The notes under the pieces: model-generated
The model's database searches: none
Seen by the model: the letters and a program-made list of their open reading frames with translations, nothing else
What the model was told of the DNA's origin: nothing
Shown here: positions 9,032 to 43,817 of the stretch, one piece after another
Layout: each line of letters starts with the position of its first letter
How positions within the stretch are numbered: the stretch's first letter is position 1
Assembly: GCF_020181595.1 (NCBI RefSeq)
Contig: NZ_CP084028.1
Location: forward strand, 426,919-490,918
Source: [Mycobacterium] vasticus
GTDB taxonomy: Bacteria > Actinomycetota > Actinomycetes > Mycobacteriales > Mycobacteriaceae
Direction: 5' to 3'
Length of the DNA: 64,000 nt
Made by a program: the position numbers and the translations under genes

Positions 9032-10128
9032 CCGGACCCAAACCCGACCCCCGCGACATCGAGACGCGGCCGATCTCGGTCGCCGAACTGCTGGCCAAGA
9101 ACGGCAACATCGGTGCCCCGCCGCCCGCCGGACGCCGTCGGCGCAGGCGCGGCAACGCCGACGCGGTCACCGTCGCCGAGCTGACCGGCGAGATCCCGAT
9201 CATCCGCGACGACGATGCACCTCCCGAACCCGATGCTCCCGCCAGCGGGGCGCTGCCGGTCGTTGCCGCACCCGGGTTCGTCGACGACGATCGGCCGCCG
9301 ACCGGGCCCCGGCCAGTTGAAAGACCGGTCGAGCCGCGCTGGCCCAAGTCGCCGATGCAGCCCGCGCGCGGCTCCGGGCCGCAGCAGAGCGCGTACCCGC
9401 GGCCGTTGCGTCGTTCCGAGCAGCCGATCGCCGAGCAGGCGCGTCCGGTGCAAGAGGACACCCGAGCCGCGGCGGCGGCGAAGGTGCCGGATCCCAGCTC
9501 CGCCTCTCCTTCGTCGAGCCTCGCTGAACTACCGGGTTCGGGAGCCGAGCAGATGCGGCCGGATCCGGTCGACAGCTATGACCTGGGCGTCGCCCTAGAC
9601 GTCGAGGCCATCAAGGCTATTGACGCCGGTGCCCGCGACGCCGATCTGCCCGTTGAGGACTCGGCGTTCATCCGCTCCTACCTGAACCCGTCCGGCGTCA
9701 GCCTGGACCGGTCGATCCGGCCGTTGCGCAGAGCGGGCCGCGGCGATGACCTCGACGATGAAATCGCGGTTGATCTGGACGATTCCGTCCGGGCGGAAGC
9801 CGGCGACGACCGCGACGACCGCGAGGATTTCGACCGCGACGACGATTACGACGACGCCCCCGTCGGGCCGACGGGAGTGGTCGGCGGAGCCCTGGTGGTG
9901 TTCCAGTCGATCCTGGCGGTCGCATTCGGCGGTGGGCTGTTCATCGCATTCGACCAGTTGTGGCGGTGGAACAGCATCGTCGCGCTGGTGCTCACCGTCT
10001 TGGTCACGCTCGGGCTGGTGACAGCGGTGCAGGTCGTCCGCAAGACCCCCGACGTCGTCAGCACCCTGATCGCGGTCGCGGTCGGCCTGCTGGTGACTTT
10101 GGGGCCGCTGGCGCTGCACGCCGGTTAG
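9028..10128 (+). CDS. Conserved membrane protein (Rv0497-like)
   Basis: A 366-residue protein. The first two thirds are hydrophilic and disordered-looking, rich in Pro, Asp and Arg with a run GRRRRRRG near residue 33 and an acidic patch around residues 250-285. Three hydrophobic segments follow between about residue 285 and the C-terminus, the first in GGALVVFQSILAVAFGGG. It resembles M. tuberculosis Rv0497 in position and topology. The ATG overlaps the ppx stop. Function unknown. Confidence 0.85.
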   Translation: MTGPKPDPRDIETRPISVAELLAKNGNIGAPPPAGRRRRRRGNADAVTVAELTGEIPIIRDDDAPPEPDAPASGALPVVAAPGFVDDDRPPTGPRPVERPVEPRWPKSPMQPARGSGPQQSAYPRPLRRSEQPIAEQARPVQEDTRAAAAAKVPDPSSASPSSSLAELPGSGAEQMRPDPVDSYDLGVALDVEAIKAIDAGARDADLPVEDSAFIRSYLNPSGVSLDRSIRPLRRAGRGDDLDDEIAVDLDDSVRAEAGDDRDDREDFDRDDDYDDAPVGPTGVVGGALVVFQSILAVAFGGGLFIAFDQLWRWNSIVALVLTVLVTLGLVTAVQVVRKTPDVVSTLIAVAVGLLVTLGPLALHAG

Positions 10129-10145
10129 CCGTTCACTATTAGTTC

Positions 10146-10988
10146 GTGCGCCCCGCCATCAAGGTCGGACTTTCGACGGCATCGGTCTACCCCCTGAAGA
10201 CCGAGGCCGCCTTCGAGTATGCGGCGCGCTTGGGCTACGACGGCGTCGAGCTGATGGTGTGGGGGGAGTCGGTCAGCCAGGACGTCGGCGCCGTGCGGCG
10301 GCTGTCGCGCAAGTACCGGATGCCGGTGCTCTCGGTGCACGCGCCGTGCCTGCTGATCTCGCAGCGGGTGTGGGGCGCGAACCCGATTCCCAAGCTGGCG
10401 CGCAGCGTTCGGGCAGCCGAGCAGCTCGGTGCCCAAACCGTCGTGGTGCATCCGCCGTTTCGCTGGCAGCGGCGCTACGCCGACGGCTTCAGCGACCAGG
10501 TCGCCGAGCTGGAGGCCGCCGGCGATGTGGCCGTGGCGGTGGAGAACATGTTCCCGTTCCGGGCCGACCGGTTCTTCGGCAGCGAGCAGTCCCGCGAGCG
10601 GATGCGCCGCCGGGGCGGCGGACCGGGCGTGGGCGTTTCTGCGTTCGCGCCGTCCCACGACCCGCTGGACGGCAACCACACCCACTACACCCTGGACCTC
10701 TCGCACACCTCCACCGCCGGCACCGACGCGCTGGAGATGGCGCGGCGGATGGGCTCGGGCCTGACCCACCTGCACCTGTGCGACGGCACCGGGTTGCCGG
10801 CCGACGAGCATCTGGTGCCGGGCCGCGGCGACCAGCCCGCCGCCGAGGTGTGCCAGCTGCTGGCCGCGGGTGACTTCGTCGGCCACGTGGTGCTGGAGGT
10901 GACCACCTCGCAGGCCCGCTCGCCCCATGAGCGTGAGGCGCTGCTGACCGAGTCGCTGCAATTCGCCCGGACGCACCTGCTGCGCTGA
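10146..10988 (+). CDS. Sugar phosphate isomerase/epimerase-like TIM-barrel protein (Rv0498-like)
   Basis: A 280-residue protein of the xylose isomerase-like/AP endonuclease family 2 TIM barrel. Metal-ligand-bearing strands are apparent: YDGVELMVWGES, LSVHAPC, VVVHPPFRW, VAVENMFPF, YTLDLSHTS, THLHLCDGTG and VVLEVTTSQ. The GTG start lies 17 bases after the preceding stop. Activity unknown; the fold allows isomerase, epimerase or endonuclease chemistry. Confidence 0.85.
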   Translation: MRPAIKVGLSTASVYPLKTEAAFEYAARLGYDGVELMVWGESVSQDVGAVRRLSRKYRMPVLSVHAPCLLISQRVWGANPIPKLARSVRAAEQLGAQTVVVHPPFRWQRRYADGFSDQVAELEAAGDVAVAVENMFPFRADRFFGSEQSRERMRRRGGGPGVGVSAFAPSHDPLDGNHTHYTLDLSHTSTAGTDALEMARRMGSGLTHLHLCDGTGLPADEHLVPGRGDQPAAEVCQLLAAGDFVGHVVLEVTTSQARSPHEREALLTESLQFARTHLLR

Positions 10989-11003: not shown

Positions 11004-11816
11004 ATGGGCCTGTTCGCCGACGCCATGCGGCTCACCCCGATCGCCGAAGAAGCCGACGGTATGAGCTTCGACGGCGCGCTCAACGAACACTGGACCATCG
11101 GTCCGAAGGTGCACGGCGGCGCCATGCTGGCGTTGTGCGCCAATGCCGCCCGCACCACCGTTGGCGGCGGGCTGCAGCCGGTCGCGGTGTCCGCCAGCTA
11201 CTTGTGGGCGCCCGACCCCGGCCCGATGCGGCTGGTGACCACGGTTCGCAAGCGCGGTCGCCGGGTCAGCCTCGTCGACGTCGAACTCAACCAGGGCGAG
11301 CGCACCGCGGTGCGCGCCGTCATCACCCTGGGTGAGCCTGAACACCAGGCACCGCCCCTGCTGTCGTTCAACCCGGTGGTGCCGTTGATGACGCCGGAGC
11401 CGCCGCCCGGCCTGGAGCCGATCGGTCCGGGGCATCCGATGGAGCACATCGTGCACCTGGCGCATGGCTGCGACATCCGGCCGGCGTTGACCACGCTAGG
11501 CCCGCGCACCGATGGCGGCCCGCCGGTGATCGAGATGTGGGTGCGGCCCAAGGACGACCCACCCGATGTGCTGTTCGCGCTGCTGTGCGGCGACGTGTCC
11601 GCGCCGGTGACGTTCGCCGTCGAGCGCGCCGGTTGGGCGCCCACCGTGCAGCTCACCGCCTACCTGCGGGCCGTCCCGGCCGACGGCTGGCTGCGGGTGA
11701 TCTGCAGTTGTGTGGAGATCGGCCAGGACTGGTTCGACGAGGACCACACCGTCGTCGACTCAGCGGGGCGGATCGTGGTGCAGTCGCGCCAGTTGGCGAT
11801 GGTCCCGGTCCAGTAG
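11004..11816 (+). CDS. Thioesterase-fold protein, double hotdog (Rv0499-like)
   Basis: A 270-residue acyl-CoA thioesterase-like protein with two predicted hotdog repeats. The N-terminal one holds the substrate-helix region KVHGGAMLALCANA, and the C-terminal one the segment VTFAVERAGWAPTVQLTAYLRA. ATG is preceded by GAAGGGA. It belongs to the thioesterase superfamily group that hydrolyses acyl-CoA esters; the acyl chain cannot be read from sequence. Its stop codon forms part of the proC -10 element. Confidence 0.8.
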   Translation: MGLFADAMRLTPIAEEADGMSFDGALNEHWTIGPKVHGGAMLALCANAARTTVGGGLQPVAVSASYLWAPDPGPMRLVTTVRKRGRRVSLVDVELNQGERTAVRAVITLGEPEHQAPPLLSFNPVVPLMTPEPPPGLEPIGPGHPMEHIVHLAHGCDIRPALTTLGPRTDGGPPVIEMWVRPKDDPPDVLFALLCGDVSAPVTFAVERAGWAPTVQLTAYLRAVPADGWLRVICSCVEIGQDWFDEDHTVVDSAGRIVVQSRQLAMVPVQ

Positions 11817-11819
11817 CCT
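11814..11819 (+). promoter_or_regulatory. -10 element of a probable leaderless promoter for proC
   Basis: TAGCCT, overlapping the upstream TAG stop, is followed by 6 bases and the proC ATG at 11826. No ribosome binding site precedes the ATG. This matches the leaderless pattern seen at several genes here. Confidence 0.5.
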
Positions 11820-11825
11820 GTCGCA

Positions 11826-12686
11826 ATGTCCAGAATCGCGATCATCGGCGGCGGCAACATGGGCGAGGCCCTGCTGGGAGGTTTGCTGGCGGCGGGGCAC
11901 CCGGTCAAGGACCTGGTGGTGGCCGAACGCTTCGCGGATCGGGCTCGGCAGCTCTCCGAGAAGTACTCGGTGCTGGTGACCTCGGTCGCCGACGCGATGG
12001 AGAACGCCCCGATCGTGATCGTCGCGGTGAAGCCGCAGGACGTGGACAGCGTCGTCGCGGAATTCGCCAAGAATGTCACCGCGTCCTCCGGCGACAGTGC
12101 CGACCAGGTGCTGGTGACCATCGTCGCCGGCGTCACCACCGGGTACGTCGAGTCCAAACTGCCCGCCGGTGCCGCGGTGATCCGGGTGATGCCCAACACC
12201 CCGGTCAAGGTCCGTGCCGGGGCCAGCGGGCTGGCCAGGGGCCGGTTCGCCGGCGACGAACAGGTCGACGAGGTGGCCGCGCTGTTCGAGGCCGTCGGCA
12301 CCGTGGCGATCGTGCCGGAGGAACAGCTCGATGCGCTGACCGCGGTGTCGGGTTCCGGGCCGGCCTACTTCTTCTTGATGGTGGAGGCCCTGGTGGACGC
12401 CGGGGTCGCGGTCGGCCTGAGCCGGCGTACGGCGACCGATCTGGCGGTGCAGACCATGGCTGGAGCGGCACAGATGCTGGCCGAGGAGCGCAGTGCGGCG
12501 TCGGGCGAGGCCGGTGTGGCCATCGACACCGCGGCGACGGGGCTCAGGGCCATGGTGACCTCGCCCGGTGGCACCACCGCGGCCGGAGTTCGGGAGCTGG
12601 AGGCCGGCGGGTTCCGGACGGCGGTGGACAGGGCGGTACAAGCTGCGAAAAACCGCTCTGAGCAGCTAAGAATTACATCGGAGTAG
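11826..12686 (+). CDS. proC: Pyrroline-5-carboxylate reductase
   Basis: A 286-residue enzyme reducing pyrroline-5-carboxylate to L-proline with NAD(P)H. The Rossmann motif IAIIGGGNMGEALLGG opens the protein, VAVKPQDV and VIRVMPNTP follow, and the conserved C-terminal signature around residues 215-260 includes AATGLRAMVTSPGGTTAAG. Length matches the family. Cytoplasmic, last step of proline biosynthesis. Confidence 0.95.
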   Translation: MSRIAIIGGGNMGEALLGGLLAAGHPVKDLVVAERFADRARQLSEKYSVLVTSVADAMENAPIVIVAVKPQDVDSVVAEFAKNVTASSGDSADQVLVTIVAGVTTGYVESKLPAGAAVIRVMPNTPVKVRAGASGLARGRFAGDEQVDEVAALFEAVGTVAIVPEEQLDALTAVSGSGPAYFFLMVEALVDAGVAVGLSRRTATDLAVQTMAGAAQMLAEERSAASGEAGVAIDTAATGLRAMVTSPGGTTAAGVRELEAGGFRTAVDRAVQAAKNRSEQLRITSE

Positions 12687-25083: not shown

Positions 25084-27225
25084 TCAGCCGGCCGGCCTCA
25101 CGGTGACGTCGACGGTGCCGGTGCCGTCCGAGGCGATGATCAGCACGGGGGCACCCGAAGCCGAGACGACGTGTCCGCCGGTGACGCTGACCTGGTAGCC
25201 GTCCGGGTAGATGATCTTGGGCACCGAGATCTCGGTCTGGGTCCCGGCGCCGAAGTGGCCTGCACCGCCTGCCATCTCGGTGGAGTAGCTGAAGTGGAAC
25301 GTGCCGTCGGCAAAGGACCAGGACTCCGGCGTGCCGGCGATGGCCTGCGGGTACGGCTCGGCCAGCGTGGTCAGAACGGGGTTGTCGGCCTGATCGTCGA
25401 CCACTCCACCGTTGAGGTTCGGGCCCATCGCGAGGCCGTAGTTCCAGTACATCCAGCCGAAGCCCTGACTGTTGGCCTCCGTGAGGGTGTCATCGATGCT
25501 GGGGGTGTACCTGGTGTTGCCGAACTCGGTGATCACCGCCGGCATGTTGTTGGGATAGGCATAGGCCGCAGCGTTGTCCTGGACGATGGTCTCCCACGCC
25601 GCGCAGCCGAAGGTGCTGTCGCCGAGCAGCGCCGTCGTCGTGCAGTAGTCGTGGAACGAGAAGACGGTGTTCTCGTCGTTCACCGTGCCCAGGTGAGTGG
25701 GTATCGGAAGGTTGCCGGACAGCGTGCTCGGTTCGATATAGACCGAGGTGTGCGGGTCGACGGACCGGATCGCCGAGGCCACCTGGTCGTAGAACGGGGT
25801 CAGTTGTTGAGCCCCGAAATAGGAATTGCCGAATATCGTTGACAGCCAGGTTGATCCAGGCCACGGTTCGTTCATGATCTCGTAGCCGGCCACGTTCGGG
25901 TCACCGGCGAAGTAGCCGGCGACGGCCTGCCACATCTGCGCGTAGTGATTCTGCAGCCCGACGCCGTCGGGTGCGTCGGAGTTGGACCAGAACGCATCCC
26001 AGGCGTGGTTCTGCGCGGGACTGATCGCGTAGGTCCACGGGAACCCGGCATTGATGTCGGGCAATCCGCCGGTCTGGACCGCCCAGTCCGGCGCACCGTC
26101 TGCGCCGAGCGAGGCGCTGTAGAGGTCCTGGTGCATGTCGAGTACCGAGTAGATGCCGTGGTTGGCCAGCGTCTGCACGGTCTGGTTGATTTCGGCCAGG
26201 TAGTCGTAGTCGATAACTCCAGGCGTCGGTTCGACGGCTTCCCAGATGATGCCCACCCGGACCGAGTTGAAGCCGTTGGCGGCCAGGAACGCCGCATCGT
26301 CGTCGTTGAACCCCTGGGCGGCCGGGTAGAACGGAGCGCCCTTGTTCACCTCGCTGAATCCGTGCAGGATGACGACGCGTCCGTCTTCGTCGGTGATCCA
26401 GGTACCGGTGGTGCCCAGGCCTGCGGCGGCCACGGCGGGCGCGCCGTCGAGGGTTCCGTAGTGGCCGACGGCACCGTGGATACCGAGCATGCTGCTGTTG
26501 CCGCCGGCGCCGCCGAGGGCGGGGAGGTCACCCGGGCCGGTGTAGGTCCCGTTGCCGGCGTCGCCGCCGTTGCCGCCGACGCCCATCAACCAGCCGGCGT
26601 CGCCGCCGTCCCCGCCGTTGCCTCCGGAACCGCCGTGGCCGCCACTGCCGCCGTTGCCGAACATGCCGGCTGCGCCGCCGGCCCCGCCCATTCCGCCGGA
26701 TTCGGTATTGTCCCAACCCTTTCCGCCGTCGCCGAACAGCCAGCCGCCGTCGCCGCCATTGGCGTGCTCTGCGGTGCCGTCGGCGCCGTCGCCGATCAGG
26801 GCGCGGCCGGTCAGGGCGAGGAACGGTTGGTTGATCAGGTTGTTGACCTGCGCGCCGAGGTCGCCGTTGATCCAGTCTTCGATACCGGTGTGGATCGGGG
26901 TGTAGAAGTACTGCTGTAGCCAGACGGCCGGATCGACCGGAATGGCTGCTGCCGCACCGGGTGTAGCCAGCCCACCGAGTTCGGCGAGCACAGTGTCCCA
27001 GTGGGTGGGCGCCAGGAAGGTGTCCCAGGAGGTGGGGGACAAGACCGCGTCCCAGACGAGGTTGCCGGTGCCGGCATCGACGAACGGCGCCATGGCCGCC
27101 TCGATCGCGTCGTCGAAGTCAGCCTGAGCGGCAGGGGCCGCGGCGAGTGGAGCGATCCCGTATGTCAGGAAAGCGGCGGTGGTAGCGGCAAATCCGACCG
27201 TCCGGCTCGTCATACGGTCTTTCAT
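25084..27225 (-). CDS. Secreted PGRS-GH5 glycosidase, endoglycoceramidase-like (copy 1)
   Basis: A 713-residue protein. Residues 1-36 form a Sec-type signal peptide ending AAQA, followed by a Trp-rich segment and the motif RALIGDGADGT that begins PGRS regions. Residues about 156-245 are Gly-rich PGRS repeats. Residues about 276-625 form a GH5 catalytic domain of endoglycoceramidase type: LHGFSEVNK, SVRVGIIWEAVEP, DMHQDLYS, the acid/base Glu 453 in NEPWPGS and the nucleophile Glu 567 in ITEFGNT. Residues about 635-713 form the beta-sandwich C-terminal domain of that family. No PE domain. Third gene of a three-gene operon, 15 bases after copy 2. The substrate, perhaps a glycolipid, is inferred from family. 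Confidence 0.88.
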   Translation of the reverse strand: MKDRMTSRTVGFAATTAAFLTYGIAPLAAAPAAQADFDDAIEAAMAPFVDAGTGNLVWDAVLSPTSWDTFLAPTHWDTVLAELGGLATPGAAAAIPVDPAVWLQQYFYTPIHTGIEDWINGDLGAQVNNLINQPFLALTGRALIGDGADGTAEHANGGDGGWLFGDGGKGWDNTESGGMGGAGGAAGMFGNGGSGGHGGSGGNGGDGGDAGWLMGVGGNGGDAGNGTYTGPGDLPALGGAGGNSSMLGIHGAVGHYGTLDGAPAVAAAGLGTTGTWITDEDGRVVILHGFSEVNKGAPFYPAAQGFNDDDAAFLAANGFNSVRVGIIWEAVEPTPGVIDYDYLAEINQTVQTLANHGIYSVLDMHQDLYSASLGADGAPDWAVQTGGLPDINAGFPWTYAISPAQNHAWDAFWSNSDAPDGVGLQNHYAQMWQAVAGYFAGDPNVAGYEIMNEPWPGSTWLSTIFGNSYFGAQQLTPFYDQVASAIRSVDPHTSVYIEPSTLSGNLPIPTHLGTVNDENTVFSFHDYCTTTALLGDSTFGCAAWETIVQDNAAAYAYPNNMPAVITEFGNTRYTPSIDDTLTEANSQGFGWMYWNYGLAMGPNLNGGVVDDQADNPVLTTLAEPYPQAIAGTPESWSFADGTFHFSYSTEMAGGAGHFGAGTQTEISVPKIIYPDGYQVSVTGGHVVSASGAPVLIIASDGTGTVDVTVRPAG

Positions 27226-27240
27226 CTTGACTTCCGTTTC

Positions 27241-29394
27241 CTAGTCGGCGGGGGTGACCGAGACGGTGACGGTGCTCGCACCGCCGTCCGAGGCGATGAT
27301 CAGCACGGGGGCGCCGGCCACCGAGACGACGTGGCCGCCGGTGACGGCGACCTGGTAGCCGTTGGGGTAGTGCGACGCCGGCACCGAGATCTCGGTCTGC
27401 GAGCCGGCGGCGAAATTGGCTGTGCTGCCCGGCATCGCAGTGTTGTAGGCGAGGTGGAAGGTGCCGTCGGTGAACGACCAGGAGTTTGGGGTGCCCGCGA
27501 TCGCCTGCGCGTACGGTGCCGAAGTCGCTTCCAGCCGGACCCAATCGACGTTGTCGCCGACCAGCGGCTTGCTCGGGTCGATGACCAGCGCATTTCCCGG
27601 CGCCGTGCCGGTGATCTCCGGTACCCCGTTGTAGGCCCACTGCGACCAGCCCCACATCCGTTGGTCGGCGGCGTTCATCACCATCGTGGCTTCCTCGGCG
27701 CCGTTCCCGGATCCGAACTCCGAGATGAATCCCGGCACGCCGTACCTGCTCGTGTACGCCTCGCCGTTGTTCGCCTCCATCTCGATGTATCCCGGGCACA
27801 GCGGAGAGAGAGCCATGCTGAGGCTGGTCAGCATGCAGTAGTTGTGGAAGGCGAAGACGCCGTGCGGGTCGTCGACCGGACCCAGCTGGGTCGGCACCGC
27901 CTCGTTGAACAGGGTGTTCGGCTCGTAGATCAGCGGGGTGGTCGGGTCGACGGAGCGGATCGCCGCGCTCACTTGGTTGTAGAACGGGGTCAGTTGCTGG
28001 GCTTCGTAGTAGGAGTTGCCGAATATCGTTGACAGCCAACTGGAGCCGGCCCACGGTTCGTTGATTATCTCGTAGCCGGCGACGTTCGGGTCGTCCTTGA
28101 AGTAGTCCGCAACGGCTTGGGTCATCCGGGCGTAGTGGTTCAGCAGCCCCACCCCGTCAGGCCCTTTGGCGTTGCCCCAGAACGCATCCCAGGCGTGGTT
28201 CTCCGCGGGGTTGAGCGGGTAGTTCAGGCCGAAACCGAAGTCGATGTTGGGCAGTCCGCCGGTCTGGGTGGCCCACTCCGGTGCACCCTCGCCGCCGAAC
28301 GTGGGGCTGAAGTCGTCCTGGTGGAAGTCGATGACGCTGACGATGCCGTGGTTGGCCAGGGTCTGTACGGTCTGGTTGATCGAGGCCAGGTAGTTATAGT
28401 CGATAACTCCAGGCTCGGGCTCTACGCCGGCCCAGATGACGCCCAAGCGAACCGAGTTGAAGCCGTTGGCGGCCAGGAACGCCGCGTCGTCGTCGCTGAA
28501 CCCGCCGGCCGACGGCTCGTACGGCGGGATCTTGTACACCTCGTTGAATCCATGCAGCACCAGGGCGCGGCCGTCGGCGTCGGTGATCCAGCTGCCGGCG
28601 GTGGTGATGCCGGCGACGGCGGCCGGCGCGCCATCGAGGGTGCCGGCTTGGCCGTGGTCGCCGTGGGTGCCGAGCAGCATGCCGGCGTTCCCGCCCGCGC
28701 CGCCGAGGGCGGGCAGATCGCCAGCGCCGCTGTAGGTCCCGTCGCCGGCGTTGCCGCCGGTCCCGCCGATGCCCATCAGCCAGCCGCCGTTGCCGCCGTC
28801 CCCGCCGTTGCCACCGAGGCTGCCGTCTGCGCCGCCACCGCCACTGCCGCCGTTGCCGAACATGCCGGCGTTGCCCCCGGCCCCGCCCATGCCGTCGGCG
28901 GCGGTGTTGGCCCAGCCGTTTCCGCCGTCGCCGAACAGCCAGCCGCCGTCGCCGCCATCGGCATGTTCAGCCGTACCGTCGGCGCCGTCGCCGATCAGGG
29001 CGCGTCCGGTCAGGGCGAGGAACGGCTGGTTGATCAGGTTGTTGACCTGCGCACCGAGGTCGCTGTTGATCCAGCCCTCGATACCGGTGTGGAGCGGGGT
29101 GTAGAAGTACTGCAGCAGCAGGGTATTCGGGTCGGCAAGCGCCGGTCCGGCCAGAGCGAGTCCGGCCAGGGCGGCATCCCAGTGACCCGGGGCCAGGAAG
29201 GTGTCCCAGGCCGCGGGCGAGACCACCGCATCCCAGTCCAGGTTGCCGGTGGGGTCCAGAAACGGCGCCAGGAAGTCGTCGATCACCACGTCGAAGGCAT
29301 CCGCCTGTGCCTGCGGGGCGCTGACCAGCGGCGCCGTCCCGAAGGTCAGTAACGCACCGGCGGAGACGGTGAATCCGACAGCCCGACTGCTCAT
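27241..29394 (-). CDS. Secreted PGRS-GH5 glycosidase, endoglycoceramidase-like (copy 2)
   Basis: A 717-residue paralogue of the flanking genes with the same layout: signal peptide (1-32, ending AQADAF), RALIGDGADGT at 131-141, PGRS repeats about 147-245, GH5 domain about 266-620, C-terminal beta-sandwich. Catalytic residues are Glu 446 in NEPWAGS and Glu 559 in ISEFGSG. It has diverged most in the active-site surroundings: HQDDFSPTF replaces HQDLYSASL, HNYCMLTSL replaces HDYCTT, and an extra Pro/Cys loop follows. A different substrate preference is therefore possible. ATG preceded by GGGAG; starts 11 bases after the copy 3 stop. Confidence 0.87.
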   Translation of the reverse strand: MSSRAVGFTVSAGALLTFGTAPLVSAPQAQADAFDVVIDDFLAPFLDPTGNLDWDAVVSPAAWDTFLAPGHWDAALAGLALAGPALADPNTLLLQYFYTPLHTGIEGWINSDLGAQVNNLINQPFLALTGRALIGDGADGTAEHADGGDGGWLFGDGGNGWANTAADGMGGAGGNAGMFGNGGSGGGGADGSLGGNGGDGGNGGWLMGIGGTGGNAGDGTYSGAGDLPALGGAGGNAGMLLGTHGDHGQAGTLDGAPAAVAGITTAGSWITDADGRALVLHGFNEVYKIPPYEPSAGGFSDDDAAFLAANGFNSVRLGVIWAGVEPEPGVIDYNYLASINQTVQTLANHGIVSVIDFHQDDFSPTFGGEGAPEWATQTGGLPNIDFGFGLNYPLNPAENHAWDAFWGNAKGPDGVGLLNHYARMTQAVADYFKDDPNVAGYEIINEPWAGSSWLSTIFGNSYYEAQQLTPFYNQVSAAIRSVDPTTPLIYEPNTLFNEAVPTQLGPVDDPHGVFAFHNYCMLTSLSMALSPLCPGYIEMEANNGEAYTSRYGVPGFISEFGSGNGAEEATMVMNAADQRMWGWSQWAYNGVPEITGTAPGNALVIDPSKPLVGDNVDWVRLEATSAPYAQAIAGTPNSWSFTDGTFHLAYNTAMPGSTANFAAGSQTEISVPASHYPNGYQVAVTGGHVVSVAGAPVLIIASDGGASTVTVSVTPAD

Positions 29395-29405
29395 CTGGTT
29401 TCTCC

Positions 29406-31508
29406 CTAACCGGTCCGGGTGACGACGACGTCGACGGTGGTCGCGCCGCTGTCCGATGCGATGACGAGAACCGGAGCGTTGGCTGCGGAGATCACGTGCC
29501 CGCCGGTGACGGTGACCTGGTAACCGTCGGGGTATTGCAGTGCCGGAACGGAGATCTCGGTCTGGGTGCCCGCTGCGAAGCTGCCTGTTCCGTCGGCCAT
29601 CGCGGTGGAGTAGCTGAGGTGGTAGGTGCCGGCATCAAATGACCAGGAATCCGGGATACCCGCCACCGCAAGCGGATACGGCTGGGCGAGCGTGGTCAGA
29701 GTGGTGTAGTCGACGGTGCTGTCATTCACCGGCGTGTTCAGGTCCCAGTACCGCATCATGGTGTAGTCCCAGAACATCCAGTTGTAGCTGTAGTGGTTGG
29801 CCTCGGTCATCGTGTCGGTGATCGCACCGGGGTCGGTGGTGGCGCCGAACTCGGTGATCGCCACCGGCAGGCCGTGTGCCGATGCGTATGCCTCGGCGTT
29901 GCCCTGGACGATCGTCTCCCACAGCGAGCAGCCGGTGTTGCCGCCGAACAGGGCCGTCACGGTGCAGTAGTCATGGAAGGCGAAGACCGAGTTCGGGTCG
30001 TCCACGGTGCCGAGGTGGGTCGGGATCGGGAGGTTGCCCGACAGGGTGTTCGGTTCGAAGTACACCGGTGTGGCCGAGTCGACGGCTCTGATGGCGGAGT
30101 CGACCAGGTTGTAGAACGGGGTCAGCTGCTGGCCTTCGAAGAACGGGTTGCCGAAGACGGTGTTGAGCCACTGCGATCCCGCCCAGGGCTCGTTCATGAG
30201 CTCGTAGCCGACGACGGAGGAGTCGTCTTTGAAATAGTTCGCGACGTGTTCCCACATCTGCGCGTAGTGGTTCTGCAGGCCGATGCCGTCCGGTGCTTTG
30301 GCGTTGGACCAGAACGCATCCCAGGCGGCATACTCCGCGGGGTTGAGCGCGTAGGTCCACGGCCAGCCGGCGTAGTTGTTGGGTGTGTCGCCGATCTGCA
30401 CCGCCCATTCGGGTGCGCCGTCGGCACCCAGTGAGGCGCTGTAGAGGTCCTGATGCATGTCGAGGACGGTGCGGATGCCGTGGTTGGACAGGGTCTGCAC
30501 GGTCTGGGAGATCTCGTTGAGGTAGTCGTAGTCGATCACCCCGGGCTCCGGTTCGACACCGGCCCAAAGGATTCCGAGCCGCACGACGTTGAATCCGTTG
30601 GCGGCCAGCAGTGCCGCGTCGGCATCGCTGAAGCCCTCTGCGGCGGGATAGAACGGCGGGTTCTTCATCACCTCGCCGAAACCGTGCAGGATCACGACCC
30701 GCCCGTCGTCGTCGACCAGCCAGCTGCCGGCGGTGGTGATGTCCGAGGCGCCGCCAGACGGTGCACCGTCCAGGGTGCCGTGGTGGCCGTGGTCGCCGTG
30801 GATGCCCAGCATACTGCTGTTGCCGCCGGCGCCGCCGAGGGCGGGTAGGTCGCCCGGGCTGCTGTACACGCCGTTGCCGGCGTCGCCGCCGGTACCGCCG
30901 ATCCCCATCAGCCAGCCGCCGTCTCCGCCGTCCCCGCCGTTGCCGCCGACTCCGCCGTAACCGCCGTGGCCGCCACTGCCGCCGTTGCCGAACATTCCGG
31001 CATCGCCGCCGGCCCCGCCCATGCCGCCTGCGGCGGTGTTGGTCCAACCCTTTCCGCCGTCGCCGAACAGCCAGCCGCCGTCGCCGCCGTTGACATGTTC
31101 AGCCGTACCGTCGACGCCGTCGCCGATCAGGGCGCGTCCGGTCAGCGCGAGGAAGGGCTGGTTGATGAGGTTGTCGACCTGTTGGCCGAGATCGCTCTTG
31201 ATCCAGTCTTCGATGCCGGTGTGGATCGGGGTGTAGATGTACTGCTGCGCGAGCACGGCCGGGTCGGCAAGCGCCGGTCCGGCCGGAGCGAGTCCGGCCA
31301 GGACGGCCTCCCAGTGACCGGGGGACAGGAAGGTGTCCCAGGCCGCGGGCGAGGCCACCGCCTCCCAGTCGAGACCACCGGTGGTGACGTCCAGGAACGG
31401 CGCCAGGAAGTCGTCGGCGTCGAAATCCGCCTCGGCGGCCGGTGCCATCCCGAACATCAGGAACGCACCGGCGGCAGCGACAGATCCGAGAACTCGGCGA
31501 CTGGCCAT
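29406..31508 (-). CDS. Secreted PGRS-GH5 glycosidase, endoglycoceramidase-like (copy 3)
   Basis: A 700-residue protein and first gene of the tandem array. Signal peptide 1-27, RALIGDGVDGT at 125-135, PGRS repeats about 141-235, GH5 domain about 260-610 with acid/base Glu 440 in NEPWAGS and nucleophile Glu 553 in ITEFGAT, then the C-terminal beta-sandwich. More similar to copy 1 than to copy 2 in the active site (DMHQDLYSASLGADGAP in both). Promoter region with an inverted repeat lies in the 161 bases upstream. All three copies share the post-signal motif DFxxDDFLAPF or a close variant. Confidence 0.88.
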   Translation of the reverse strand: MASRRVLGSVAAAGAFLMFGMAPAAEADFDADDFLAPFLDVTTGGLDWEAVASPAAWDTFLSPGHWEAVLAGLAPAGPALADPAVLAQQYIYTPIHTGIEDWIKSDLGQQVDNLINQPFLALTGRALIGDGVDGTAEHVNGGDGGWLFGDGGKGWTNTAAGGMGGAGGDAGMFGNGGSGGHGGYGGVGGNGGDGGDGGWLMGIGGTGGDAGNGVYSSPGDLPALGGAGGNSSMLGIHGDHGHHGTLDGAPSGGASDITTAGSWLVDDDGRVVILHGFGEVMKNPPFYPAAEGFSDADAALLAANGFNVVRLGILWAGVEPEPGVIDYDYLNEISQTVQTLSNHGIRTVLDMHQDLYSASLGADGAPEWAVQIGDTPNNYAGWPWTYALNPAEYAAWDAFWSNAKAPDGIGLQNHYAQMWEHVANYFKDDSSVVGYELMNEPWAGSQWLNTVFGNPFFEGQQLTPFYNLVDSAIRAVDSATPVYFEPNTLSGNLPIPTHLGTVDDPNSVFAFHDYCTVTALFGGNTGCSLWETIVQGNAEAYASAHGLPVAITEFGATTDPGAITDTMTEANHYSYNWMFWDYTMMRYWDLNTPVNDSTVDYTTLTTLAQPYPLAVAGIPDSWSFDAGTYHLSYSTAMADGTGSFAAGTQTEISVPALQYPDGYQVTVTGGHVISAANAPVLVIASDSGATTVDVVVTRTG

Positions 31509-32481: not shown

Positions 32482-34583
32482 TCACCACCGACCTGGAACT
32501 GCGCGGCATGACCTGTGCGTCCTGCGCGGCCCGGGTGGAGCGCGGCCTCAACGCGCTCGACGGAGTGCACGCCACGGTCAACCTCGCCGTCGAACGCGCC
32601 CGCGTCGAGCACCCGCCGAGCGTCTCCGGCGAGGATCTGGTGCGGGCGGTGGAGTCGGCCGGCTATCAGGCCGCGGTGATCGGCGCCGGCCACGAGCATC
32701 CCGCCGAACACTCCGATGTGCCGGCCGGTCAACTGCGCGCCCGGCTGATCGGCTCGGCGCTGCTGGCCGTCCCGGTGGTGGCGCTGTCGATGGTGCCGGC
32801 CTGGCAGTTCGACGGCTGGCATCAGTTGGCGCTCGCCCTGACGACCCCGATCGTGGTGTGGGGCGGCTACCCGTTCCACAGTGCTGCCCTGCGCACCGCC
32901 GCGCACGGCGCCGCCACCATGGACACCCTGGTGTCGCTTGGGACGTTGGCGGCCTACCTGTGGTCGACGGTCGCGGTCATCGCCGGATCGGGCCACCTCT
33001 ACTTCGAAGTGGCGGCCGTGGTCACGGTGTTCCTGCTGGCCGGCCGCTTCGCCGAGGCGCACGCCAAACGATCGGCCGGTGCCGCGCTGCGCGAACTGCT
33101 GGAACTGGGCGCCAAGGACGCCGCGGTGATGCGACGCGGCGACGACGGGCTCAAAGAGATCCGGGTGCCGATCGCCGACCTGCGGGTGGGCGACGTCCTG
33201 GTGGTCCGGCCCGGTGAGCGGATCGCCACCGACGGCGTGGTCATCGACGGCAGCACCGCACTGGACACCGCGGCGATGACGGGTGAGTCCGTTCCCGTCG
33301 ACGTAGGTGAGGGGGACGCGGTGCTGGGCGGCGTCCTCAACACCACCGGTCTGGTGCTGGTGCGTGCCACCAAGGTCGGCGCCGACACCCAACTCGCCCG
33401 GATCGCCAAGCTGGTCACCGACGCCCAGGCCGGCAAGGCGTCCATCCAACGGCTGGCCGACCGGGTGTCGGCGGTGTTCGTGCCCGCGGTGCTGGTGATC
33501 GCCGCGGTCACCCTGGCCGGCTGGTTGGCGACCGGGCATTCCGCTGCGGCGGCGTTCACCGCGGCCGTCGCCGTGCTGATCATCGCCTGCCCCTGCGCGC
33601 TGGGGCTGGCCACCCCGACGGCCATCCTGGTCGGCACCGGCCGGGGCGCCCAGCTCGGCATCGTCATCAAGAACCCGCAGGTCCTCGAGGCCGTCAAGGA
33701 CATCGACACCGTCGTACTCGACAAGACCGGAACGGTCACCACCGGCGTCATGACCCTCGGCGGCCTGGCCGCCGCCCACGGGGAGGACCCGAATACCGTG
33801 CTGGCCCGGGCCGCCGCCGTCGAATCCGGCTCGCAGCACCCGATCGCGGCGGCCATCGTCGCCGGGGCCGCCGGCCTGACGATCGGCCCGGTGAGCGAGT
33901 TCGCCAGTACCCCCGGCCACGGCGTGAGCGGCATGGTCGACGGCGTGCGGGTCGAGGTCACCCGATCGGCCGCCGCGCACCAGACCGGGACGGCCGTCGA
34001 GGTCTCCTGGGACGGTCGGGCGCGCGGGACGATCACGCTGACTGACACCGTCCGGCCCACCAGTGCAGCGGCGGTGGCCGAACTCAAGTCCATGGGCATC
34101 ACCCCGGTGTTGCTCACCGGCGACGGCGCCGCCGTGGCGCGCAAGGTGGCCGCCGAGGTCGGGATCGACCCGGCCGACGTCATCGCCGACGTGCTGCCGG
34201 CCGACAAGGCTGAGGCCATCACGAAGCTGCAGGCCCGAGGCGCCCGGGTGGCGATGGTCGGTGACGGCGTCAACGACTCGGCGGCGCTGGCCACCGCCGA
34301 CATCGGGATGGCGATGGGCAGCGGCAGTGACGCCGCCATCGAGGCCGGTGACCTGACGCTGGTGCGCGCTGACCTGGGGGTGGTCCCGGCCGCGCTGCGC
34401 CTGTCGGCGCGCACGCTGAGCATCATCCGGCAGAACCTGGTGTGGGCGTTCGGCTACAACGTCGCGGCGATCCCGCTGGCGGCGGCCGGAATGCTCAACC
34501 CGATGATTGCTGGCGCGGCGATGGCAGCGTCCTCGGTGCTGGTGGTGACGAATAGCCTGCGGCTTCGCCGGTTCGCGGGGTAG
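32478..34583 (+). CDS. Copper-type P1B ATPase (heavy metal translocating)
   Basis: A 701-residue P1B-type ATPase. One N-terminal HMA domain carries GMTCASC (Cys 13, Cys 16). The actuator loop has TGESVP, the membrane metal site is CPC (about residue 370, in IIACPCALGLATPT), the phosphorylation motif is DKTGT (about residue 414), SQHPIAA is the HP motif and GDGVND the hinge motif (about residue 594). CPC plus HMA places it with Cu(I) exporters such as CopA/CtpA/CtpB/CtpV. Which Ctp it corresponds to is not certain. GTG start overlapping the previous stop. No CsoR-like regulator is adjacent. Confidence 0.92.
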   Translation: MITTDLELRGMTCASCAARVERGLNALDGVHATVNLAVERARVEHPPSVSGEDLVRAVESAGYQAAVIGAGHEHPAEHSDVPAGQLRARLIGSALLAVPVVALSMVPAWQFDGWHQLALALTTPIVVWGGYPFHSAALRTAAHGAATMDTLVSLGTLAAYLWSTVAVIAGSGHLYFEVAAVVTVFLLAGRFAEAHAKRSAGAALRELLELGAKDAAVMRRGDDGLKEIRVPIADLRVGDVLVVRPGERIATDGVVIDGSTALDTAAMTGESVPVDVGEGDAVLGGVLNTTGLVLVRATKVGADTQLARIAKLVTDAQAGKASIQRLADRVSAVFVPAVLVIAAVTLAGWLATGHSAAAAFTAAVAVLIIACPCALGLATPTAILVGTGRGAQLGIVIKNPQVLEAVKDIDTVVLDKTGTVTTGVMTLGGLAAAHGEDPNTVLARAAAVESGSQHPIAAAIVAGAAGLTIGPVSEFASTPGHGVSGMVDGVRVEVTRSAAAHQTGTAVEVSWDGRARGTITLTDTVRPTSAAAVAELKSMGITPVLLTGDGAAVARKVAAEVGIDPADVIADVLPADKAEAITKLQARGARVAMVGDGVNDSAALATADIGMAMGSGSDAAIEAGDLTLVRADLGVVPAALRLSARTLSIIRQNLVWAFGYNVAAIPLAAAGMLNPMIAGAAMAASSVLVVTNSLRLRRFAG

Positions 34584-34619
34584 GGTCCGGAAATCGTTCG
34601 AGCGAAGGGGAAAGTGCAC

Positions 34620-34940
34620 ATGAAATCAGTGAAGTTTTCTGCTGCCGCCGGTCTCGCCTTGGCGGCCCTGGCCTCTGCCGGCGCTGCAGGCGCCGACCCG
34701 GCCAACCCGGATCCGTTCAACCCGGCCGACTGTATGGCGAACGCGAATGCGGTCTGCAATGCCGGGCCGTACGGGCCCGACAGCCTGACGAACCCGGCGA
34801 ACATCAACAGCCCGATTAACCTGGACAACCCGGCCAATCCCGCCAGCCCGATGGACCCGATGAACCCGGCGAACATCAACAGCCCGATGAATCCGATGAA
34901 TCCGGCCAGCCCGATGAACCCGATGAACATGCCCTACTAG
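34620..34940 (+). CDS. Secreted Asn/Pro/Met-rich repeat protein
   Basis: A 106-residue protein with a signal peptide (residues 1-27, ending GAAGA) and a mature part built of degenerate repeats of NPANINSP and SPMNPMNPA. Two cysteines (CMANANAVC) precede the repeats. The ATG at 34620 has AAGGGG 9 bases upstream; a GTG two codons earlier is possible. A TAGGGT box near 34580 could be its -10. Extended, proline-rich wall proteins look like this, but no function is known. Confidence 0.72.
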   Translation: MKSVKFSAAAGLALAALASAGAAGADPANPDPFNPADCMANANAVCNAGPYGPDSLTNPANINSPINLDNPANPASPMDPMNPANINSPMNPMNPASPMNPMNMPY

Positions 34941-42284: not shown

Positions 42285-43817
42285 ATGTCTGCTCGCCGCG
42301 CTGTGAAACCGGTCCAACTCACCTCCGTCGGGGCGTTTCTGGCGCTCGGGTTGAGCCCGCTGTCCGCCGCGCCGGCGCAGGCCGACTTCGATGACCTGTT
42401 CTCACTGGACCAGTTATTCGACCCCGCAGCGCTGCCCGACCCGGGCTCGGCCGCCGGCGACACCTCGGACCTGCCCCTCGCGGGTACCGACATCTACACC
42501 TGGCTGTCGGTGGGCGAGGTCGTCTTCGCCGGGCTGGTCCAGAACCAGCTCTACGCCACTATTCACGATCTGGGCACCCTGTGGACCATGGGGCCGGGGG
42601 CGTTGATCGACCCGATCATCAACCCGCTCTTCGCCTTTGACGGTGCTTGTGGGCTGATCTGCGACGGCGTCGACGGCACCGTGGATCACCCCGACGGCGG
42701 CGACGGCGGCTGGTTGTTCGGTGACGGCGGCAACGGCTACGGCGCCGGCAGCGACCAGAACATCGCCGCCGGAGTGGTCGGCGGCCACGGCGGCGACGCC
42801 AAGATGATCGGCAACGGCGGCTGGGGCGGCGACGGTGGTTCCAGTGCCGACGGCGGTGACGGCGGAACCGGCGGCTGGCTGCTGGGCAACGGCGGCGAAG
42901 GCGGTTGGGGCGGCGACGGGCTGGACAGCATCTCCGGCACCGCGGGCAATGGCGGCAACGGTGGGCTCGGCGGCGACGCCATCTCGCTGTTCGGCGCGGG
43001 CGGTCGCGGCGGTGACGGCGGTGACGGCGGCTGGGGCAACGCCGGCGGTGACGGCGGCAACGGCGGCAATGCCGGTGACGGTGGCCGCGCGGTGGCCGGC
43101 TTCGGTGGTCCCGGCGGTTCCGCGGGCTACGGCGGCAACGGCGGCGACGGCACCGCCGAGCACCCGGACGGCGGCAACGGTGGGGACGCCGGGGCGGCCG
43201 GCAATGCCGGTGACCTGATGTTCATGGGCAACGCCGGGCCGGGCGGCTTCAGCGGCCCCGGCGGTAACGGCGGCAACGCATTTGCCGGCTCGGACGGCAA
43301 CGGCGGCAACGGCGGCCGCGGTGGTGACGGCGGTTCGGGCGGCTACGGCGGCGTTCCCAGCCACGGCCGGGCCGCCGGTGCCGGTGGCAACGGCGGGGCC
43401 GCGGGATCGTGGGCCGGCACCGCCGGCAACGGTGGCGATGGCGGGACTGGCAAGGACGGCATGGTCGGGCACCCGGACAGTGGCGAGAGCGGCGGCGGCG
43501 GCAAGGGTGGCACCGGTGGTGCCGGTGGTGCCGGTACGGCGGCCCATCCCGACGGCGGCGTCGGCGGCATGGGGGGCAACGGCGGTGACGCCGGGGACGG
43601 CGCGGCGGCATCGGCCGGTGGTGCCGGCGGTACGGGTGGTGCCGGTGGTGCGGCGGCTGCAGGTGGATCGGTCGGACCCGGCGGCGCGGGCGGCAATGGT
43701 GGTGACGGCGGCGACGGTGCCGAGGCCGGAAAGGCCGGTGCCGCCGGAGCCGGTGGCGCGGGCGAGCCGACCGGAACCTCGGGCAAGGCAGGCACGGCCG
43801 GCACCGAAACGGGGTAG
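42285..43817 (+). CDS. Secreted PGRS repeat protein without PE domain
   Basis: A 510-residue protein. Residues 1-33 are a Sec-type signal peptide ending SAAPAQA, followed by DFDDLF as in the three PGRS-glycosidases. A linker with the junction motif CDGVDGTVDHPDGGDGG replaces the usual GADGT, and about 370 residues of Gly-Gly-X/Asn-Gly repeats follow to the C-terminus. There is no PE domain and no catalytic domain. PGRS regions are surface-exposed calcium-binding-type folds by analogy with PE_PGRS proteins. Probably leaderless. Confidence 0.88.
   Translation: MSARRAVKPVQLTSVGAFLALGLSPLSAAPAQADFDDLFSLDQLFDPAALPDPGSAAGDTSDLPLAGTDIYTWLSVGEVVFAGLVQNQLYATIHDLGTLWTMGPGALIDPIINPLFAFDGACGLICDGVDGTVDHPDGGDGGWLFGDGGNGYGAGSDQNIAAGVVGGHGGDAKMIGNGGWGGDGGSSADGGDGGTGGWLLGNGGEGGWGGDGLDSISGTAGNGGNGGLGGDAISLFGAGGRGGDGGDGGWGNAGGDGGNGGNAGDGGRAVAGFGGPGGSAGYGGNGGDGTAEHPDGGNGGDAGAAGNAGDLMFMGNAGPGGFSGPGGNGGNAFAGSDGNGGNGGRGGDGGSGGYGGVPSHGRAAGAGGNGGAAGSWAGTAGNGGDGGTGKDGMVGHPDSGESGGGGKGGTGGAGGAGTAAHPDGGVGGMGGNGGDAGDGAAASAGGAGGTGGAGGAAAAGGSVGPGGAGGNGGDGGDGAEAGKAGAAGAGGAGEPTGTSGKAGTAGTETG

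Follow-up and report, generated by a model that had tools for sequence, protein, structure and literature searches.

The window analysed here, a stretch of 64,000 nucleotides (nt) of [Mycobacterium] vasticus (contig NZ_CP084028.1), carries three tandem minus-strand genes whose products of 713, 717 and 700 amino acids (aa) each combine a PGRS region with a glycosidase domain. They are called copy 1, copy 2 and copy 3, copy 3 being the first gene of the array and copy 1 the last. The array probably belongs to a large family of PGRS proteins in Mycolicibacter that lack PE, and its products would be Sec-exported, mycomembrane-anchored, endoglycoceramidase-related glycosidases whose delivery half is exchanged by recombination. 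Every array protein has the order predicted signal peptide, N domain, PGRS, GH5 catalytic domain and GH5 C-terminal domain, and a Pfam search places PF21526 (PGRS), PF00150 (GH5) and PF18564 (GH5 C-terminal domain) in each gene above the gathering scores. The open reading frame (ORF) list agrees with the initial annotation, made from the sequence alone, on three tandem genes with intergenic gaps of 15 and 11 bases. Moreover, the Pfam matches and the alignment of core positions bear out its description of a signal peptide (read by eye or by heuristic scan), PGRS, GH5 with both glutamates and a C-terminal sandwich, with no PE domain. Genomes are denoted below by G numbers, the array genome being G000, and loci by L numbers.

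The leader family

The N-terminal half of the array proteins reads as the leader shared by a large family of PGRS proteins without PE. In the array genome, copy 3 gives 31 matches, of which 6 contain GH5 and 25 are limited to the N-terminal part. Twenty-four of these 25 loci were fetched separately, the remaining one being the further PGRS protein of the window (Table 1); most of the 24 end in PGRS, and 20 (one partly masked) pass the signal-peptide scan. The PE-free PGRS-GH5 fusion of the initial annotation was thus right as an architecture and too narrow as a description, as 25 of the 31 leader matches in the genome lack GH5.

The N-termini of this family, hereafter SP-PGRS (signal peptide-PGRS), are predicted to be Sec-type signal peptides. 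The heuristic scan, which looks for an n-region, a hydrophobic core and an AxA motif, is passed by 86 of 97 ORFs; it is not a trained predictor and does not distinguish Sec from Tat. A hydrophobic stretch ending in AxA[DE] is present in 68 of the 80 PGRS ORFs from G000, G016 and G022. When these are aligned at the AxA[DE] site, Pro stands at -5 in 59 and Arg at -28 in 52, the core reads GAFLAFGMAPLA, and the signal consensus is R-x-V/I-G-A-G...G-A-F-L-A-F-G-M-A-P-L-A..A-P-x-A-Q/H-A|D.

PE (PF00934) has no Pfam match in the array proteins, and a home-made PE profile, run against 73 full PGRS-GH5 ORFs and 24 further SP-PGRS ORFs, gave no match in either set (best E 0.3). The profile was built from 8 PE domains, all of which were recovered as a control; these came from 8 of 12 PE loci, the script's motif having picked another ORF at L058-L061. 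No PE-PGRS-GH5 fusion occurs among the 73 full ORFs tested, and L126, a candidate for such a fusion, turned out to be a stand-alone GH5 preceded by an unrelated open frame. In all three array copies, the GRPLI-type motif GRALI precedes the PGRS block. The pre-PGRS sequence of copy 2 (NNLINQPFLALTGRALIGDGADG) aligns by eye with the linker of a G017 PE_PGRS protein, and the PGRS block does likewise. In addition, a set of 21 PGRS-GH5 proteins shares many invariant PGRS glycines.

PGRS with and without PE across genomes

A PGRS place was counted as near PE when it lay within 1000-1200 nt of a PE domain. By this measure, none of the 159 listed places in five Mycolicibacter-type genomes is near PE (G000 0/26 listed with 27 found, G016 0/33, G022 0/42, G097 0/16, G174 0/42), as against all 47 in three PE_PGRS-type genomes (G017 30/30 listed with 31 found, G121 4/4, G264 13/13). 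The other genomes gave 0/7 listed with 8 found (G018) and 0/4 each (G033, G024 and G004). Each of the five Mycolicibacter-type genomes does have 10-17 recognisable PE places, none of them near a listed PGRS; the PE family search also exceeds its cut-off in the E. coli control genome. The classing of G016, G022, G097 and G174 as Mycolicibacter-type rests on the grouping of their genes with rows from named Mycolicibacter. In the three genomes with PE-borne PGRS, GH5 is a stand-alone protein (L017, L127, L128), and in the nine with PE-free PGRS it is carried on PGRS. This contrast is a pattern and not a survey, because all 12 genomes were picked for holding GH5. In the genus sample, PGRS is found at E 1e-6 in 141 of 248 genomes, a count that takes no account of leader type.

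A census that starts from PE misses the PE-free PGRS family, since the accessible part of a 2025 table counts no PE_PGRS in two Mycolicibacter species (Mycolicibacter terrae: PE 12, PE_PGRS 0; M. engbaekii: PE 11, PE_PGRS 0; PMC12209268). No literature on PE-free Sec-type PGRS families or on PGRS-GH5 fusions was found by title or abstract start among the matches listed, in a search whose coverage leaves subscription journals largely outside.

Family placement of the GH5 domain

The initial annotation called the GH5 domains endoglycoceramidase-like, and the search of Protein Data Bank (PDB) sequences with copy 3 agrees. All of the six best matches carry the name endoglycosylceramidase or endoglycoceramidase II (E 2.9e-55 to 8e-26), among them 5ccu at 2.9e-55, 2osw at 1.4e-41 and 6jyz at 8e-26. 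They are followed by a 'Cytoplasmic protein' chain (1e-9), a sterylglucosidase (2e-6) and glucanases from 1e-5 onwards. The nearest entry, 5ccu, which we take to be Rhodococcus equi endoglycoceramidase I (EGC I), is titled 'putative secreted endoglycosylceramidase', as is 5j14. The array copies are 34-36% identical to it over ~420 columns, and PF18564 is present in all three (E 6e-14 to 3e-13). On the other hand, the curated endoglycoceramidase I model NF051847 matches the copies with E 4e-81 to 4e-87 and 273-293 bits and its cut-off of 700 is not reached, while the aligned 439-aa stretch of 5ccu used as a control scores 819 bits. Because this cut-off is missed, the array GH5 is labelled by homology as endoglycoceramidase-related only and is not classed as endoglycoceramidase I. 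The claim that the catalytic domains are closer to endoglycoceramidases than to cellulases is upheld by the PDB ranking, by which a cellulase assignment is disfavoured; the tree described next held no cellulase row.

In a GH5 tree of 101 rows, the 88 mycobacterial rows form one clade (support 99), which splits into 7 stand-alone secreted rows and 81 others (97 each). PGRS is seen in 79 of the 81, the other two being fragments truncated by the edge of a locus. EGC I is joined to the mycobacterial rows by a branch with support 99, apart from endoglycoceramidase II (EGC II) and five distant rows. The tree was made by a quick search with 17 partial rows excluded, and its root on EGC II was set by choice. 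The split within the mycobacterial clade suggests a single old PGRS-GH5 fusion common to Mycolicibacter and Mycolicibacterium. At E 1e-30, the GH5 domain is found in 53 of 248 genomes of the genus sample and in 12 of 246 of the phylum sample. The array genome has 6 PGRS-GH5 genes and G022 has 11, a twelfth G022 match being an N-terminal piece.

Active sites and a subclade without the nucleophile

The core set of the EGC type was presumed to comprise two glutamates together with Arg, His, Asn, His, Tyr and Trp, and was then checked against EGC I. Nine GH5 core positions were scored in the 88 mycobacterial rows. All nine, including both glutamates, are intact in the three array copies and in 81 of the 88 rows; by position, the acid/base Glu and the Lys are kept in 88, the HQD His in 87, and the nucleophile Glu, Arg, Asn, HDY His and Tyr in 82 each. 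The paralog L004 of the array genome (C1:748761-750893) keeps both glutamates and has lost the HQD His and Asp and one Trp.

In six rows the nucleophile Glu is replaced by Gly and the Arg, Asn, His and Tyr are lost too. These rows form one clade (support 100) and come from four genomes: L027 and L028 from G022, two from M. engbaekii, one from M. nonchromogenicus and one from strain UM_WGJ. The loci of the subclade are L027, L028, L078, L081 and L088. Its ratio of nonsynonymous to synonymous substitution rates (dN/dS) is 0.13-0.31 in six pairs, as against 0.12-0.31 in eight pairs of residue-intact rows. Decay of the subclade is therefore unsupported, and because dN/dS is as low as in intact rows, the six look like maintained pseudo-enzymes. 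Their domains are perhaps binding domains, that is, candidates for a lectin-like role.

Copy 2 had been proposed to have an altered active-site surround; this does not hold. By the script's measure, the loop after the active-site Trp has 39-42 residues in copy 2 and most of 25 mycobacterial rows, so copy 2 is typical, and the shorter loops are those of copies 1 and 3, which share a value of 28 with L011, L020 and L022; L021 and L026 have 31 and EGC I has 20, and the values of 65 for L019 and L024 probably come from a mis-set end. Degeneration of copy 2 was likewise rejected, as its nine core positions are kept and its dN/dS is 0.15-0.16 over three orthologs.

Evolution of the array

Trees and approximately unbiased (AU) tests were run on 15 rows, with the delivery segment (before GH5) set against the catalytic core. 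The delivery segments are unequal: those of copies 2 and 3, L011, L018, MYC123 and G093 start after the signal peptide (369 nt), that of MYC098 has 426 nt and the rest have ~550. The catalytic cores fall into two ortholog groups (100/100 each), both of which occupy the same locus in G022 and in MYC340. The AU test rejects, for these cores, one clade of the three array copies (p 7e-42), copies 2 and 3 together (2e-28), L011 with L018 (1e-65) and the MYC340 pair (5e-5). Full-length orthologs found elsewhere share 80-89% identity with copy 2 and one partial row shares 93%, as against 57-59% for its array neighbours. The delivery segments group otherwise, with copies 2 and 3 as sisters (96/94), L011 with L018 (identical) and the two MYC340 genes together (98/98). 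For this segment, the test does not establish one clade of all three array copies (p 0.089) and rejects a grouping of copy 3 with the MYC123 gene (p 0.019).

DNA identity runs of 95-100% over much of the first ~700 nt, with catalytic cores at 45-93%, are found in 5 of 14 within-genome pairs (L011/L018, L066, L012/L019, L024/L025 and L082), the first two of which come from near-identical genomes. L011/L018 and L066 return to 97-98% DNA identity in the C-terminal sandwich. The pattern indicates that delivery halves are often homogenised within genomes by recombination while catalytic halves are old and divergent.

The single gene of Mycolicibacter sp. MYC123 at this locus is a mosaic. Its first ~90 codons, to which the likeness to copy 3 is limited, are copy 3-like (91-96%), its middle is copy 2-like (80-94%), and one 30-codon stretch near the 3' end is copy 1-like (92%; copy 2 86%). 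Moreover, its flank is 95.6% identical over 3.3 kb, reaching into copy 1. This could be what unequal crossing-over leaves. As a side observation, a 1.1-kb stretch of the four-gene G022 array (L154, ~11160-12290) contains no array gene by the script, and a similar gap is seen in G093 (L152, ~9680-10800).

PecA and other C-terminal domains

L043 in the array genome and L160 in G022 are SP-PGRS proteins that end in a PecA-type aspartic protease (PF20729, E 8e-81 and 9e-82; NF038019, 237.6 and 243.4 bits, exceeding the cut-off of 150). This domain thus stands on a PE-free scaffold in genomes without any listed PGRS near PE. A search of 13 genomes found the PecA family in 12, mostly also as separate proteins that lack PGRS, and in G097 and G174 the frame of one PecA match also has a PGRS match. 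According to the accessible text of one report, PecA is a PE_PGRS protein that removes PE domains (PMC6819658). One might guess that its substrate on the PE-free scaffold is the N domain between signal and PGRS. L048 is an SP-PGRS protein that runs into collagen-like GATGDT repeats and an NHL-type stretch, and the head of L168 is DUF2599.

Proposed mechanism and alternative explanations

The conserved Sec-type signal peptide would export the protein. After the short N domain and the GRPLI-type linker would come a PGRS 'sail', and the analogy to PE_PGRS suggests that it may seat the protein in the outer mycomembrane. The outward-facing GH5 domain would then act as a retaining glycosidase with the usual pair of glutamates and cleave a beta-glycosidic bond in a lipid-linked or similar glycoconjugate. 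Recombination between copies would exchange and homogenise the delivery halves and leave the catalytic halves old and divergent, so that one delivery cassette may serve several catalytic heads, including one conserved subclade that is putatively catalytically dead.

Several results weigh against this account. The signal scan misses 11 of the 97 ORFs and gives one evidently spurious match, on the paralog L006. No uniform 5' half is seen in 9 of the 14 within-genome pairs, including the three array pairs, whose 5' halves are mostly 70-92% identical. Another tandem locus was analysed with 13 of 14 rows (L082_1 was dropped by the script's motif). There, within-genome pairing gave p 0.35 in the test of the delivery halves and p 0.48 and 0.058 in those of the catalytic halves, and L084 (100/99) and, weakly, L012/L019 (56/99) have catalytic halves that group by genome. 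The missed NF051847 cut-off counts here too, as do the long branches of EGC I and EGC II, which the tree program flagged.

PGRS may be a flexible spacer only, the proteins being released as soluble secreted enzymes. The stand-alone secreted GH5 of other mycobacteria (7 rows) means that the enzyme does not need PGRS; against this, the sail model as given in the accessible text of its source puts PGRS in the mycomembrane (PMC9436101), and many PGRS glycines are invariant. A spacer is the less probable explanation, if one that carries appreciable weight. A role of the GH5 domains in cutting environmental polysaccharides, as beta-glucanases or cellulases that resemble endoglycoceramidases through shared ancestry only, is unlikely. 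The modest identity to EGC I and the missed curated cut-off favour such enzymes, but the first glucanase in the PDB ranking (1e-5) comes after six endoglycoceramidases and PF18564 is present. Furthermore, subfamilies GH5_28 and GH5_29 comprise only endoglycosylceramidases in the accessible part of their description (PMC3526467), the array GH5 itself being without a CAZy subfamily placement.

That the N domain is a strongly diverged PE, and the proteins ordinary PE_PGRS substrates of ESX-5 (type VII), has very little probability. The linker, GRPLI-type motif and PGRS block are indeed shared with PE_PGRS; yet the PE profile matches 0 of 97 ORFs, PF00934 is absent from the window proteins, a hydrophobic signal ending in AxA|D stands in its place, and the 10-17 PE places per Mycolicibacter-type genome are all away from listed PGRS. 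The recent triplication proposed in the initial annotation is practically untenable. It would fit the tight spacing and the sister position of copies 2 and 3 in the N-domain/PGRS segment tree, but one clade of catalytic cores is rejected, both ortholog groups share the locus in G022 and MYC340, and copy 2 is closer to orthologs elsewhere than to its neighbours.

Genomic setting

Purine-rich stretches lie upstream of both inner start codons of the array, and the 15- and 11-base gaps make a single transcript for the three genes plausible. Pfam matches on the neighbours identify hemB (PF00490) and a P-type ATPase gene (PF00122) on the two sides. The same setting is found in several relatives with a varying number of genes, namely one in MYC123, one in M. 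engbaekii, three in the window and four in G022. The array genome is a single contig of 4.55 Mb. Five flanking genes have 95.8-98.9% protein identity to Mycolicibacter sp. MYC123, and the 44 loci in named genomes are nearly all from Mycolicibacter, Mycolicibacterium or Mycobacterium species without a species name; on these two grounds the window is assigned to the Mycolicibacter type (M. terrae group). Scans for tRNA and composition gave nothing relevant to the array question in the window. A minus-strand ORF at 34454-34930, which has a hydrophobic FIGFIGLAGFIG-type repeat at its N-terminus and overlaps the P-type ATPase gene at that gene's end, may not be a real gene.

Table 1. Features of the array and a related gene, in window positions
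Feature	Positions	Strand	Basis
Copy 3 (first array gene), 700-aa SP-PGRS-GH5 protein	29406..31508	-	ORF; PF00150 E 1e-27, PF18564 5.9e-14, PF21526 5.4e-12
Copy 3 predicted Sec-type signal peptide, aa 1-27, ending AEA|D	31428..31508	-	by eye and family consensus; heuristic scan cut three residues earlier
Copy 3 PGRS region, aa 128-244	30777..31127	-	PF21526 aa 128-195 and glycine-rich extent
Copy 3 GH5 catalytic domain, aa 296-583, with the glutamates of NEPW and TEFG	29760..30623	-	Pfam and alignment of core positions
Copy 3 GH5 C-terminal sandwich, aa 610-694	29427..29681	-	PF18564
Copy 2, 717-aa SP-PGRS-GH5 protein, in a well conserved ortholog group	27241..29394	-	ORF, Pfam, trees
Copy 2 predicted signal peptide, aa 1-31, ending AQA|D	29302..29394	-	heuristic scan
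Copy 2 PGRS region, aa 134-251	28642..28995	-	Pfam and glycine-rich extent
Copy 2 GH5 catalytic domain, aa 300-589	27628..28497	-	Pfam and core positions
Copy 2 GH5 C-terminal sandwich, aa 627-711	27262..27516	-	PF18564
Copy 1 (last array gene), 713-aa SP-PGRS-GH5 protein	25084..27225	-	ORF, Pfam
Copy 1 predicted signal peptide, aa 1-35, ending AQA|D	27121..27225	-	by eye; heuristic scan cut three residues earlier
Copy 1 PGRS region, aa 144-257	26455..26796	-	PF21526 aa 144-213 and glycine-rich extent
Copy 1 GH5 catalytic domain, aa 306-597	25435..26310	-	Pfam and core positions
Copy 1 GH5 C-terminal sandwich, aa 624-709; MYC123 flank homology (95.6%) enters its 3' end	25099..25356	-	PF18564
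Further SP-PGRS protein, 510 aa, same leader family	42285..43817	+	PGRS sole Pfam match; N-terminal match to copy 3 E 1.8e-20

Comparison with known systems and significance

The PE_PGRS proteins of slow-growing mycobacteria, which use ESX-5, resemble the SP-PGRS family in their GRPLI-type linker and PF21526 block and in the C-terminal cargo of some members, including the PecA protease domain. They differ in having a PE domain, in place of which the SP-PGRS family has a Sec-type signal peptide and another N domain. SP-PGRS genomes do have PE genes but, unlike PE_PGRS genomes, no listed PGRS near a PE domain. EGC I shares with the array proteins the GH5 domain, the catalytic residues including Lys and HQD, the C-terminal domain and a collinear match of ~450 aa. 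In contrast to EGC I, the array GH5 is fused to PGRS and lies below the NF051847 cut-off, and some of its relatives are catalytically dead by residues. PecA (PE_PGRS35) has the same aspartic protease cargo family as L043 and L160, but in SP-PGRS genomes no PE-PGRS was found as its target. The accessible text of a 2025 review describes PGRS domains with questionable N-termini in M. smegmatis (PMC11939664), that is, PGRS without classical PE_PGRS as in Mycolicibacter. Compared with that description, the SP-PGRS N-terminus reads as Sec-type across many ORFs and comes with cargo enzymes.

Enzymes on PGRS are already known from PE_PGRS, for example PecA, and the sail model has PGRS carry enzymes on the mycomembrane (PMC6819658 and PMC9436101, accessible text); what is new here is a predicted PGRS display without PE. 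A tentative joint reading, possible rather than probable, is that PGRS is a leader-independent surface-display module and not an invention of the PE family. It would be Sec-exported with swappable heads in Mycolicibacter and some Mycolicibacterium, and PE_PGRS would be a later capture by PE and ESX-5. In Mycolicibacter, recombination would keep the delivery half uniform, the heads would meanwhile diversify into active, altered and selected dead (lectin-like) glycosidases, and PecA there may work on a non-PE target. PGRS biology has so far been read largely through PE, ESX-5 and pathogenicity, and censuses that start from the PE domain overlook the SP-PGRS family. A large PGRS family of predicted Sec type in the M. 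terrae group separates PGRS function from PE function, and its recognisable C-terminal enzymes may serve as reporters, in non-tuberculous strains, for the model in which PGRS carries enzymes on the mycomembrane.

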